Shown piece by piece: positions 47,341 to 57,743 of a stretch of 64,000 nucleotides of DNA; positions within the stretch are counted from its first letter, which is position 1; every line of letters begins with the position of its first letter. The notes below the pieces were generated by a model. It worked only from the letters and a program-made list of their open reading frames with translations. It searched no databases and was not told the origin of the DNA. The stretch comes from Actinokineospora inagensis DSM 44258. Lineage in GTDB: Bacteria > Actinomycetota > Actinomycetes > Mycobacteriales > Pseudonocardiaceae. Both the position numbers and the translations under genes were made by a program. Location: contig NZ_AXWW01000013.1 in the NCBI RefSeq assembly GCF_000482865.1, forward strand, positions 62,001-126,000, given 5' to 3'.

Positions 47341-47624
47341 AACGGGGGAACGCGGGTGTCCTGCGTCACCGGAATCGGTGGACAACCCGTGGACAACCCT
47401 GTGTACAGGCCTGTGGGTAGCGCTCGGGCGGGCTGGGGACGACTTGGCCCACATCTGGGGATGGCGCTGTGGACAACTCGGCCTCCCTGTGGACGGATCG
47501 AGCCTGTGGGTAACTCATCCACCGGACCCCCCAAGCTGTCCACGGATCCATCCCCGGGTTACCCACAGGTGGCCGTGCCCGCTGACCTGCGTGGACCACG
47601 GTCATCCACACAATCCACAGGGCT

Positions 47625-47680
47625 TACTACTAGTACTGTTTTTCTTCTCTTCCAGAGGAAGAAAAAGATTAAAAACAGGG
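47625..47680. promoter_or_regulatory. AT-rich DNA-unwinding element of oriC
   Basis: The most AT-rich stretch near the DnaA boxes, with CTTACTACTAGTACTG then TTTTTCTTC (47639-47647) and its complement GAAGAAAAA (47658-47666) around a 10-bp loop, then GATTAAAAAC. Immediately right of the DnaA box cluster, as expected for a DUE. Confidence 0.7.
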
Positions 47681-47862
47681 GACGGCAAAAGTTGGGGACA
47701 AGTCGCGGCGGCGGCCCGGGACGCGTCCGCCGTGGCCGGGGCGCCCCGGATGACGGGAGGGCGGATCACGCTCTACGGTTGGGGCTCACAGCGTGGACAG
47801 CTCGACGGTTCGGTCATCGCACGTCAGGTGCCGCCCACCGTCCGGGCCTGGAAAGGACACCC

Positions 47863-49937: not shown

Positions 49938-51094
49938 TGCGGGTCCGGCACTTGCAGGTCAGCGACTTCCGGTCCTGGGAGCGGGCCGACCTGGAGCTGG
50001 ACGGCGGGGTGTCGGTGCTGGTCGGCGCGAACGGGCAGGGCAAGACGAACCTGGTCGAGGCGATCGGGTACGTGGCCACGCTCGGCTCGCACCGGGTCGC
50101 CTCCGACCAGCCGCTGGTGCGGCACGGGTGCGCGCGGGCGATCGTGCGGACGGCGGTGGTCAACGACGGCCGGGAGTTGACGGTCGAGTTGGAGATCACG
50201 CCGGGCAAGGCGAACCGGGCCAGGATCAACCGCGGTCCGGTGCCGCGCACCCGGGACGTGTTGGGGATCTTGCGCACGGTGTTGTTCGCGCCGGAGGACC
50301 TGTCGCTGGTGCGCGGGGACCCGGGTGAGCGCCGCCGGTTCCTGGACGAGTTGTTGGTGTTGCGCGCGCCGCGGTACGCCGGGGTGCGCGCGGACTACGA
50401 GAAGGTGCTCAAGCAGCGGAACGCGTTGTTGAAAAGCGCGGCCACCAATCGGCGCGCGCGTCGGGCCGACCCGGACGCGGTGTCGACCCTGGACGTGTGG
50501 GACAACCACCTCGCGGTGCACGGCGCCCAGTTGTTGGCGGCCCGGTTGGACCTGGTCGCCGACCTGGGGCCGCGGGTCGCGGCGGCTTATGCCGGGGTGG
50601 CGCCGGAGTCACGTCCGGCGCACGTCGCCTACCGCTCGCAGATCGAGGACACGCTGCCCGCGGGATACGGGAAGCATGGTGGGGAGCGCGCGGACGTCGA
50701 GGTCGTGGCCGACGCGCTGCTGGCCAGGATGGCGCTGCGCCGGGACGCCGAGCTGGAGCGCGGGGTGAGCCTGGTCGGACCCCAGCGCGACGAGTTGGAC
50801 TTGGTTTTGGGGGAGACCCCGGCGAAGGGATACGCGAGCCACGGTGAATCTTGGTCGTTCGCGCTGGCGTTGCGGCTGGCGTCGTACGAGCTGCTCAAGG
50901 ACGAGGGCAGCGAGCCGGTGCTGGTGCTCGACGACGTGTTCGCCGAGTTGGACCGGCGGCGCAGGCAGCGACTCGCCGAGGTGGCGGTCGGCGCGGAGCA
51001 GGTCCTGGTGACGGCCGCGGTGGAGGAGGATGTGCCCGCGGAGCTGTCCGGGGTCCGGTTCGAGGTGGCCGGCGGGGAGGTGCGGCGTGTCTGA
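49937..51094 (+). CDS. recF: DNA replication and repair ATPase RecF
   Basis: 385 residues from GTG 49937, overlapping the gnd stop by one base. SMC-like ABC ATPase: Walker [21 protein letters not shown], signature region [20 protein letters not shown], and Walker [17 protein letters not shown]. It loads RecA at gapped DNA with RecO and RecR and acts at blocked forks. Its stop overlaps the dciA start by 8 bp. Confidence 0.96.
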
Positions 51095-51839
51095 CGACCT
51101 GTTCGGCGGCGCGCTGGACCCGGTACCGCCGCGACCACCCCGAGTGACCGGGCGCGGGCGAGTTGCCCCCACATCTGGGGATAAACCTGTGGATAGTGTG
51201 GATAACACCGTCACCGTGCGGCCATCCGGGGGACTCGGAGCGGGCAAAAGCCAGGCTCTATCCACACCCGGGGGTGGACAACTCGCCGATTCATCCACAG
51301 GGGTGACGCAGAGTGAGGGTGAGCCGCGGGACGCGGAGCAGCCGCGGGGCCCAGATCTTGCCAGAGCCGCGCTGGCCGCCGCCCGGCAGGCCGCCAAGGC
51401 CAACCCGAAACGCGTTGTTCCACGTGGAACAGTGGGCGCGACCTCGCGACGGCGACGACGGTGGTCCGGTCCGGGTGGTGACGAACGGGACCCGCAGCCG
51501 CTGGGCAGGCTCGCCTCCCGGATGGCCGTGGAGCGCGGCTGGCAGGAGAACCTCGCCGGCGGGCAGGTCTTCAGCCGGTGGTCCACACTGGTCGGAGCGG
51601 ATGTCGCCGAGCACGCCCAACCCGTCGCGATCAAGGACGGGGAGCTGACCGTGCGGGCCGACTCCACCGCGTGGGCCACCCAACTGCGGTTGCTGCAGCG
51701 CCAACTGCTGGCCAGGATCGCCGCGGCGGTCGGGTCCGGCGTTGTCGAGCGGCTCCGGGTGCAGGGTCCGTCCGCGCCGAGTTGGCGGTACGGGCCACGG
51801 CACGTTCCCGGTCGTGGACCACGGGACACCTACGGCTGA
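51087..51839 (+). CDS. dciA: DciA (DUF721) replicative-helicase loader/operator
   Basis: 250 residues from GTG 51087 behind GGGGAGG. The C-terminal half is the DUF721 domain ([60 protein letters not shown]). DciA is the ancestral helicase operator and interacts with DnaB. The N-terminal ~140 residues form a low-complexity linker (Pro/Gly/Ser, then Arg-rich). Its DNA contains five DnaA-box-like sequences and a perfect parS site, so the linker residues are partly dictated by DNA signals. Confidence 0.92.
51168..51299. promoter_or_regulatory. DnaA-box cluster inside dciA
   Basis: CCCACATCTGGGGAT then TGGGGATAA (51176-51184), TGTGGATAG (51188-51196), TGTGGATAA (51197-51205, complement of the perfect TTATCCACA), CTATCCACA (51258-51266), GTGGACAA (51274-51281) and TCATCCACA (51291-51299). 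Six candidates in ~130 bp of coding sequence is well above chance. The first part repeats a 15-bp oriC segment with the same spacing to CTGTGGA (see findings). Confidence 0.75.
51416..51431. promoter_or_regulatory. parS site 4, inside dciA
   Basis: TGTTCCACGTGGAACA, a perfect 16-bp palindrome, within the dciA linker coding region. Confidence 0.93.
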
Positions 51840-51961
51840 ACCTCGCGGGTCGAGACAGCGCGGGTGGCGTCCGGACTCGCGCTGGTTGTCAAGCGACGCT
51901 CTGTGAGCGAACCAGGGGTGTCCTTGACCCGATTCTGCGCGGCCGCACCAGTAGTATGTAG

Positions 51962-54016
<2,055 letters not shown>

Positions 54017-54062: not shown

Positions 54063-57000
54063 GTGACCGAAACCCTGCCCCCTCCTGGTGACCGCATCGA
54101 GCCGGTCGACATCCAGCAGGAGATGCAGAACTCCTACATCGACTACGCCATGAGCGTCATCGTCAGCCGCGCCCTCCCGGACGTGCGCGACGGCCTCAAG
54201 CCGGTCCACCGGCGCGTGCTGTACTCGATGTTCGACACCGGTCTGCGCCCCGACCGCAGCTACGTCAAGTGCTCCCGCGTCGTCGGCGACGTCATGGGCA
54301 ACTACCACCCCCACGGCGACTCCTCCATCTACGACACCCTGGTGCGCCTGGCCCAGCCCTGGTCCATGCGCTACCCGCTCGTCGACGGCCAGGGGAACTT
54401 CGGTTCCCCGGGCAACGATCCAGCAGCCGCGATGCGCTACTGTATTGATGCAGAAACGCGCGTAAAGATGCACGACGGCTCGTCGGTGCGGATCGGGGAC
54501 ATCGTCCCGGACGCGCAGCCGAACACCGACAACGTCATCGACCTCAAGGTCGCCGACCGCGACGGCAACCCCGTTCGCGCGGACAGGCTGTTCCACTCGG
54601 GCGAGCACCCGACGCTCAAGCTGACCACCCGCGAGGGGTACGAGCTGACCGGGACGCACAACCACCCGGTGCTGTGCCTGGTGTCGGTGGCCGGTGTGCC
54701 GACCTTGCTGTGGAAGCTGCTGGAGGAGATCCAGCCCGGCGACCGCGTCGTCATGCAGCGCACGCCGATGGAAGAGGTCGGCCTACCCACGGCTGGAGAA
54801 TGCGCAGCGGCAATTGATGCGGCCAAGCAACTCGTCGACATGACCAGCGAACCGGTGATCGTCGGACCAGACGGGTCTCCGGAGTCCGCACTTGCACCCG
54901 CCCCGCTCGTGCCGGAGTTCATCTGGCAGGGAGGTAGCGCGCTCAAGCGGGTATTCCTGCGTTCCCTGTTTGATGAGAGCGGGACATTCTCCGGTAGCAG
55001 CCACGAGATCGCTTACCCCACTCACAGCACCGCGCTCGCCCATGAGGTCCAGCAGTTGCTGTTGGAGTTCGGCGTGGTGAGCAAGCTGGTCGGCTATGAC
55101 GACGGTGAGATCAAGGTCGTGGTCACCAACCGCCGGGACGCGCGGCTGTTCGCGGCCAATGTCGGCTTCCTGCAGGCGAAGCAGGACCAGCTCGAGGCGA
55201 TCCTCGCCACCATCCCGACCGAGAGCCGCTCGATGTCGAGCGACCACGTGCCGTTCGTCGGCGAGTACATCCGCGCGAACGGCGCCGTTCGGTGGACTGA
55301 GCGCGATTGGCTGCGCAGGCACAACGTCGACCGGATCGAGCGGTGGGAGACCAATCGCGACGAGATCGTCGAGCGGATCACCCAGCCGGGGGTGCTCGAC
55401 GTCGTCGAGCCGTTGGTGGACGGGCGGTTCTACTACGCGCAGGTGAAGTCGATCGCCGACGCCGGGGTGCGGGCGGTCTACAGCATCCGGGTCGACACCG
55501 ACGACCACGCGTTCGTCACCGACGGGTTCGTCAGCCACAACACCGAGTCCCGGTTGATGCCGCTCGCGATGGAGATGTTGCGGGACATCGGCGAGGACAC
55601 CGTCGACTTCGGGCCGAACTACGACGGCAAGACCGAGGAACCGAGTGTTCTGCCGTCGCGGATTCCGAACCTGTTGGTGAACGGCGGTAGCGGTATCGCC
55701 GTCGGTATGGCCACGAACATCCCGCCGCACAACCTGCGTGAGGTGGCCGATGGTGTGGTGTGGGCGTTGGATAACCCGGACGCGTCGGACGAAGAGTTGT
55801 TGGCGGCGTTGCTGACCCGGGTCAAGGGGCCGGACTTCCCGACCAAGGCGTTGATCCTCGGTACGGCGGGCATCGAGGAGGCGTACCGGACGGGGCGCGG
55901 GTCGGTGCGGATGCGCGCGGTGGTGGAGGTCGAGGAGGACGCGAAGGGGCGCACCATCCTCGTCGTCACCGAGCTGCCGTACCAGGTGAACCCGGACAAC
56001 CTGATCGAGAACATGGCGCAGTTGGTGCGCGACGGGAAGCTCACCGGGATCTCCGAGATCGCCGACGAGTCGAACTCGCGCAGCGGCATGCGGATCGTGA
56101 TCGGCCTCAAGCGCGACGCGGTCGCCAAGGTCGTGCTGAACAACCTGTACAAGCACACGCAGTTGCAGCACAACTTCGGCGTCAACATGCTCGCCCTGGT
56201 CGACCAGGTGCCGCGGACGCTGCGGATCGACCAGATCGTCCGGCACTACGTCAACCACCAGATCGAGGTGATCGTCCGGCGCACCCGGTACCGGCTGCGC
56301 AAGGCCCAGGAGCGGGCGCACATCCTGCGCGGCTACGCCAAGGCGCTGGACATGCTCGACGAGGTGATCGCGTTGATCCGCCGGTCGCCGTCGGCCGACG
56401 AGGCCAAGGTCGGGTTGATCTCGCTGCTGGATGTGGACGAGATCCAGGCGACCGCGATCCTCGAGTTGCAGTTGCGCAGGCTGGCCGCCCTGGAGCGGCA
56501 GCGGATCATCGACGAGCTCGGCGAGATCGAGCGCTACATCGCCGAGCTGGAAGCGATCCTGGCCAGCGAGGAGCAGCAGCGGCAGATCATCCGCGACGAG
56601 CTGATGGAGATCGTCGACAAGCACGGCGACGACCGGCGCACCCGGATCATCCCGTTCGACGGCGAGGTGTCGGTCGAGGACCTGATCGCCGTCGAGGACG
56701 TCGTCGTCACCATCACCCGGACCGGCTACGCCAAGCGCACCAAGACGGACCTGTACCGGGCGCAGAAACGCGGCGGCAAGGGCGTGCAGGGCGCCACCCT
56801 CAAGCAGGACGACATCGTGGCGCACTTCTTCGTGTGCTCGACCCACGACTGGATCCTGTTCTTCACCAACAAGGGCCGCGTCTACCGCGCCAAGGCCTAC
56901 GAGCTGCCCGAGGCCAACCGCGCCGCCCGCGGTCAGCACGTCGCGAACCTGCTGGCGTTCCAGCCGGACGAGCAGATCGCGCAGGTCATCCAGATCAAGG

Positions 57001-57743
57001 ACTACACGGTCGCCCCGTACCTGGTCCTCGCCACCCGCGACGGCCTGGTGAAGAAGTCGAAACTGGCCGACTTCGACAGCAACCGCGCGGGCGGTCTCAT
57101 CGGTATCAACCTCCGTGAGGAGGACGAGCTCGTCGGCGCCGTGCTGTGCTCGGCCGACGACGACCTGCTGCTCGTGTCCGCGGGCGGCCAGTCCATCCGG
57201 TTCCACGCCAGCGACGAGGCGCTGCGCCCGATGGGCCGCGCCACCTCCGGCGTCCAGGGCATGCGGTTCAACTCCGGTGACGAGCTGCTCACCCTCGGTG
57301 TCGTGAAGGAGGGCACGTTCGTTTTGGTCGCCACCGACGGCGGGTACGCCAAGCGCACCCCGATCGAGGACTACTCGGTCCAGGGCCGGGGCGGCAAGGG
57401 CGTGCTGACCATCCAGCACGACAGCAGGCGTGGCAGGCTGGTGGGGGCGGTCATCGTGGAGTTGGAGGACCAGCTCTACGCGATCACCTCCTCCGGCGGC
57501 GTCATCCGCACCGCGGCCAAAGAGGTGCGCAAGGCGGGCAGGCAGACCAAGGGCGTCCGGTTGATGAACCTGGGCGAAGGGACCACCCTGGTCGCCATCG
57601 CCCGCAGCGCCGAGGCCACCGCCGAGGTCGAGGGGGAGATCGCGGAGGTCGAGGCCACCGAGGTCGACACCGCCGAGGTCGTGGTCGAGGCCACCGACTC
57701 GACGGACCCGACCGACGCGCCGGAGCAGACCGAGCAAGACTGA
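54063..57743 (+). CDS. gyrA: DNA gyrase subunit A, with an inserted intein
   Basis: 1226 residues in one frame, ~859 after intein removal. Gyrase A breaks and rejoins DNA; its catalytic Tyr126 (AMRY) is immediately followed by a 367-residue intein (54441-55541), then the C-extein starts [11 protein letters not shown]. The N-extein has [20 protein letters not shown], the breakage domain continues through [20 protein letters not shown], and the C-terminal beta-pinwheel contains the GyrA box [10 protein letters not shown]. The end is an acidic tail ([20 protein letters not shown]...). Must be spliced to be active. Confidence 0.97.
54441..55541 (+). mobile_element. GyrA intein with LAGLIDADG-like region
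   Basis: 367 codons from Cys1 to Asn367, with Thr+1 as the next extein residue. Block [21 protein letters not shown], block B TGTHNHPV (T72, H75), block [19 protein letters not shown] and block G VSHN are complete, so splicing should work. It is closely patterned on the mycobacterial GyrA intein (Mxe type), which uses the same insertion site. Residues ~115-320 replace the short linker of mini-inteins and contain one LAGLIDADG-like helix ([12 protein letters not shown], 172-183), but a second such helix is not clear; the nuclease may be decayed. Base use here is less GC-rich than flanking gyrA. Confidence 0.93.

Follow-up and report, generated by a model that had tools for sequence, protein, structure and literature searches.

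An array of predicted DnaA boxes in the helicase loader gene dciA, conserved across the Pseudonocardiaceae

Why should a helicase loader gene carry, within its coding sequence, a cluster of sequences resembling binding sites for the initiator DnaA, some of them shared with the nearby oriC? The case considered here is from Actinokineospora inagensis DSM 44258 (genome G000: 7.28 Mb, 97 contigs). In the window, the 64,000-nt stretch of DNA that was analyzed, the gene order is dnaA, oriC, dnaN, gnd, recF, dciA, gyrB, gyrA (from the list of open reading frames, with Pfam matches for DnaA, Gnd, RecF, and DciA and the others identified by reading). A first-pass annotation of the window had named the gene as dciA, and a match to PF05258 at residues 138–225 (E 4.3e-25) bears this out. 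The 5′ part of dciA has no match in plasmids. Further along, gyrA (54063–57743) seems to include an intein-like insert, its translation having been read by eye only.

Layout of the array

The features of dciA are as follows (offsets are from the triplet start, and genome counts are for the genus):

51087..51839, plus strand: dciA, coding for the helicase loader DciA (250 aa; PF05258, ORF-list gene order); GTG start overlapping the recF stop
51168..51175, plus strand: flank CCCACATC, common to oriC, in an exact 15-mer repeat
51176..51205, boxes read on the minus strand: core triplet TGGGGATAA-ACC-TGTGGATAG-TGTGGATAA, three putative DnaA boxes
51258..51266, plus strand: inverted box CTATCCACA; TCCACA at fixed offset +85 in 13/16 genomes
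51273..51281, minus strand: box-like TTGTCCACC; GGTGGA at fixed offset +97 in 11/16 genomes
51291..51299, plus strand: inverted box TCATCCACA; TCCACA at fixed offset +118 in 14/16 genomes
51416..51431, plus strand: parS-like palindrome TGTTCCACGTGGAACA, exact match

The triplet occupies 30 bp of the N-terminal linker of dciA; with its flank, the plus-strand order is CCCACATC-TGGGGATAA-ACC-TGTGGATAG-TGTGGATAA. Its boxes are co-directional, with start-to-start distances of 12 and 9 bp, and the outer two are 21 bp apart (about two helical turns). The perfect TTATCCACA at 51197–51205 (minus strand) is the sole TTWTNCACA of the window. This box and the further box-like sequences around it are present as the first-pass annotation described them: a scan for TTRTCCACA with at most one mismatch finds 28 in the whole window, six of them within the 124 bp from 51176 to 51299 (at 51176, 51188, 51197, 51258, 51273, and 51291). 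TTATCCACA and TTGTCCACA are listed among high-affinity DnaA boxes in the available part of PMC4285127. The triplet is predicted to be bound by DnaA. The boxes correspond to about residues 27–71, ahead of the DciA domain, and the triplet is ~3.5–3.8 kb from the oriC boxes of the window. Linker length varies, yet the offsets of the three downstream boxes hold within the genus.

The parS-like palindrome at 51416–51431 is found with 0–2 mismatches in all 16 Actinokineospora genomes, 70–76 bp ahead of a conserved DPQP. Between the triplet and the gene end in 60 genomes of other genera, the best match has at least four mismatches; one of these genomes (G051) has a three-mismatch site upstream of the triplet, and seven other-genus genomes have one further downstream. 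Three weaker parS-like sites are found elsewhere in the window (40859, 41596, and 41979). In this genus, then, chromosome-control sites of two kinds seem to be present in the dciA linker.

Conservation of the triplet and constraint on its bases

With up to three mismatches allowed, the triplet pattern is found in 290 of 297 family genomes and in 46/46 genera, location in dciA having been checked for part of the matches only; a reversed control pattern gives none in the same genomes. By our reading of the match table, 270 genomes contain a single match and 20 contain two to four. The dciA region was read in 76 genomes, 16 of the genus and 60 from 45 other genera, and the array is in one frame relative to the DciA domain in all of them. 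Here the triplet was placed by its best consensus match up to 600 bp before the domain, a mild bias in favor of agreement; it fits the consensus with no mismatch in 39 genomes, one in 27, two in seven, and three in one, the poorest fits being G057 (five) and G053 (six). The 290/297 count is free of this placement bias, which does affect the third-base comparisons, the hairpin scan, and the 15-mer comparison below, as well as the box offsets above. Four of the seven negative genomes, all in genus g39 (L282–L285), have a dciA without boxes, so the triplet can be lost and is not required everywhere; other g39 genomes retain it with two or three mismatches. The remaining three are G461, whose linker includes a stretch of N; G496, which is 83% complete and has an odd frame; and G542, in which no dciA was found.

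The first-pass annotation described this segment as if constrained by DNA and not by protein, and suggested synonymous-site conservation as a check. Against a background GC of 0.876 at third positions (70,817 codons), the third base of triplet codons 0, 4, and 7 is T in 76/76 genomes while the encoded residue varies (S/T/P/A and others; P/S/A/V/T; and S/G/T/A/D/N, respectively). Among 42 conserved columns of the DciA domain, none has a fixed third base. The six triplet third-codon bases are identical in 6210/6210 between-genus comparisons (one genome per genus; these share ancestry and are not independent), as against 48% agreement in 58,837 comparisons at fourfold sites of the DciA domain; within the genus, the figures are 720/720 and 59%. 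The boxes are thus kept at synonymous positions, and the DNA half of the claim holds. In 74/76 genomes the array has an in-frame start codon ahead of it. In 15 of 18 loci titled Pseudonocardia or Pseudonocardiales, however, there is a stop 8–50 bp before the array and no start codon ahead of it, so that the array there is at or before the dciA start; in one locus (L170), the frame through the array stops 55 bp on. Triplet prevalence, third bases, and arrays without a preceding start codon together give a conservation beyond what coding explains.

“Not by protein” was too strong. The array spells the peptide SGDNPVDSVDN in the genus, and six residues (G31, D32, V35, D36, V38, and D39) do not vary among 25 aligned DciA sequences, as would be expected of a short DciA binding motif. 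As the sole cause of conservation such a motif is refuted, and has next to no probability, since third bases stay constant even where the residue changes and agree in 100% as against 48% of comparisons, and since the array is retained in loci that have no start codon ahead of it; an additional protein role for the peptide is possible. The stretch looks like a DNA site for replication control as well as protein code.

Two other candidates were considered. A family-wide RNA hairpin is unlikely: inverted boxes able to pair with the triplet were found in the linker of only 22/60 other-genus genomes (and in 2/180 recF segments as a control), as judged from the sequences of the boxes. MtrA half-sites (GTNAC) occur at 7.5 per kb in the linker as against 2.3–2.75 nearby, and a site in the available part of PMC13189361 implies an 11-bp repeat for MtrA. 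This reading was dropped because most GTNAC copies (136/232) are in codon frame, perhaps as Val-Thr codons, and no exact pair near the triplet has the 11-bp repeat (three have 10 bp).

Related elements at oriC and in other genomes

Two features of the origin bear on the comparison with dciA:

47448..47476: oriC module CCCACATC-TGGGGAT-N5-TGTGGACAA, its words and 12-bp spacing common to the dciA element
47630..47689: AT-rich oriC stretch (38% GC), likely the unwinding element

The dciA cluster had been described as repeating an oriC block, on the strength of a shared 15-mer. This 15-mer, CCCACATCTGGGGAT, is indeed exact at both 47448–47462 and 51168–51182, followed in each case by 4 bp and CTGTGGA. 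By itself the repeat is insufficient to exclude chance: with up to three mismatches allowed, two matches are found (both exact) against 1.77 expected, and 52 of 100 shuffles give two or more. Only two of 74 genomes (G000 and G005) have the exact 15-mer in both oriC and dciA, and the shorter CCCACANNTGGGGA is found in 22/76 dciA genes and 29/74 oriCs. At the level of sequence, the similarity is real as a module of two putative boxes. TGGGGA-N6-TGTGG is found in 43 of 74 extracted oriCs (26/44 genera); dinucleotide shuffles gave a mean of 0.06 and at most one over 50 rounds. Within the genus, the pair is present in 16/16 oriCs. The full triplet is found in 0/74 (extracts of 493–3087 bp, some overlong, with the dnaA end placed inexactly). 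What is repeated is therefore the two-box module and not the full block.

In a scan of the class with up to two mismatches, the triplet pattern is found in 25/296 genomes. Of these, 20 are among the 26 of Frankiaceae (f19), two belong to Actinokineospora, and three are isolated cases. The other two families of the order have none (0/24 and 0/2). The Frankiaceae triplets (L118–L137) have the same 12/9 spacing, with one or two mismatches, and are at genes other than dciA. Some are within the tail of a gene resembling padR (Pfam matches in L118 and L127), others next to a NUDIX gene (L132, L133, L134, and L137). If contigs are closed circles, they are ~32 kb (G168) and ~28 kb (G230) before dnaA. 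Queries with Frankia PadR and Ino1 gave no match in the window. A triplet near dnaA at other genes fits a role that is origin-proximal rather than specific to dciA, and the Frankiaceae triplets may also do something else.

The geometry is not universal: when TGTGG-first triplets were searched with free gaps, 34 places were found in 29/296 class genomes, and the 12/9 spacing in 14 genomes, all Frankiaceae, with other spacings in other lineages. A broad contig scan gave at least 119 stretches with the pattern, 80 of which were covered by BLAST for dnaA-region genes; 49 loci, mostly from other phyla, were taken. Among the 48 of these having the pattern, it is outside ORFs of 90 aa or more in 34, and its neighbors varied in the 20 loci scanned. 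In a Propionibacteriaceae contig it is between dnaA and dnaN, and in a Corynebacterium contig beside dnaA.

The A. inagensis genome has other box arrays as well. There are 121 doublets of TTRTCCACA-N10-TTRTCCACA with one mismatch allowed (0 for a reversed control), for example L265:603–630, L268:536–563, L271–L276, and L279. CTTGACA followed by TCAGGAATGG is found downstream in 7/10 loci read, and eight neighboring ORFs scanned share no common family; the doublets are a putative operator or repeat family. Rfam ALIL pseudoknot (RF01497) matches were found at L272:2439–2566 and L273:452–579, the former overlapping an HTH_21/rve ORF and perhaps an insertion-sequence frameshift signal. A stretch of 336 bp at L262:1319–1654 (G000:C2:114818–115153) has six perfect DnaA boxes and near matches as well, and is possibly a further DnaA cluster.

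Possible functions and known systems

The preferred reading, to which we give an even chance, is that the array is an origin-proximal, cis-acting DnaA assembly site that tunes initiation and is embedded in the helicase loader gene. DnaA would bind the triplet boxes cooperatively, forming a small ordered complex near but outside oriC, and this complex would tune initiation at oriC, for example through control of nucleotide state, handover of DnaA to oriC, or a loop to the matching oriC module. Being adjacent to oriC, the triplet would be doubled soon after initiation and could report that initiation has happened. The DciA linker, for its part, would tolerate the peptide spelled by the array. 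The 290/297 prevalence, the fixed third bases, the arrays without a preceding start codon, and the pair modules in 43/74 oriCs argue for such a site; the boxless dciA of the four g39 genomes and the lack of generality of the 12/9 spacing argue against it. A bolder version, in which the triplet is a key initiation switch outside oriC that couples DnaA assembly, loader supply, and origin firing in Pseudonocardiaceae, is speculative and on the whole unlikely.

The main rival is control of dciA itself, and the next is a split origin. Bound to the triplet, DnaA could be a roadblock to transcription within the recF-dciA message, or could sit over the start region, and the supply of loader would then track the amount of free DnaA. 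A role for DnaA as a transcription factor is established (PMC8203912, available part), and retention of the triplet at dciA also fits such control: all 76 genomes read keep the array there (scanned no further than 600 bp ahead of the domain), and the first possible in-frame starts are inside it in 15/18 Pseudonocardia or Pseudonocardiales loci. As a rule, however, the array is within the gene, with an in-frame start ahead of it in 74/76 genomes; Frankiaceae triplets are at other genes; and a sigma-70-type consensus scan of 50900–52100 found no promoter-like site, a weak test in a high-GC actinomycete. Control of dciA is quite possible, if on balance doubtful; control of gyrB, which the first-pass annotation proposed alongside it, is conceivable.

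The first-pass annotation also proposed a second part of the origin: DnaA at dciA and oriC would loop out the intervening genes and form one initiation complex. The two share TGGGGA-N6-TGTGGA, and there is a second box cluster (51176–51299) besides that of oriC (47377–47701); origins split by a spacer gene have been described (PMC4285127, available part), and long-range contacts of DnaA domain I have been proposed in actinomycetes (PMC13270200, available part). The whole would span ~3.9 kb, however, compared with up to ~2 kb for the split origins reported in the available part of PMC4285127. The dnaN-start-to-triplet distance also varies, from 3181 to 3559 bp across loci, and in Saccharopolyspora spinosa (L207; oriC outside the locus) gnd is ~1.7 kb further off than usual. 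At dciA the lowest GC over 60 bp is 57%; in the window the gene lacks a counterpart to the AT-rich stretch of oriC and is therefore not an origin by itself, although a second part could do without one. The proposal survives as conceivable but improbable.

Titration of DnaA was another first-pass suggestion. In its plain form, with the array as a set of extra boxes that are copied early after initiation, it has the six boxes in 124 bp near oriC in its favor. Yet the genome has 494 perfect TTRTCCACA (40 for the reversed pattern), to which three to six extra sites add little, besides the 121 spaced doublets and the six perfect boxes on contig C2, and titration would work without fixed spacing; it is very improbable. 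A DNA-binding protein other than DnaA could conceivably read the triplet, TTGTCCACA forming the 121 genomic doublets as well, but in the same genomes oriC has these words too, at an identical pair spacing, and such a reader is likewise most unlikely.

A putative control site that overlaps coding sequence and is kept base for base over 46 genera suggests a hitherto unexplored layer of replication control; many of these genera are antibiotic producers. The dciA triplet is better conserved than the sole oriC module compared with it (290/297 vs. 43/74 genomes). For origin annotation the case carries a warning, since a conserved DnaA array close to an origin may be outside oriC. A search of titles and abstract openings, with subscription papers mostly outside its reach, found no description of DnaA boxes in dciA.

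The E. coli loci datA, DARS1, and DARS2 need IHF or Fis. In the available part of PMC4585315 they are, like the predicted binding site in dciA, short DnaA-binding control loci apart from oriC; they are called non-coding there, whereas the dciA site is near oriC and mostly coding (15/18 Pseudonocardia or Pseudonocardiales loci differ). The split origins of B. subtilis and H. pylori (PMC4285127, available part) likewise have two box clusters with genes between them in the dnaA region. Here three genes (dnaN, gnd, and recF) intervene, the span is ~3.9 kb, and dciA lacks an AT-rich stretch. Streptomyces and B. subtilis also have clusters of DnaA boxes outside oriC, which are thought to restrain or time initiation. 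The dciA array resembles these in being a group of DnaA boxes away from oriC, and differs in being a rigid 30-bp triplet, in the coding sequence of a helicase loader, with its bases fixed over 46 genera.
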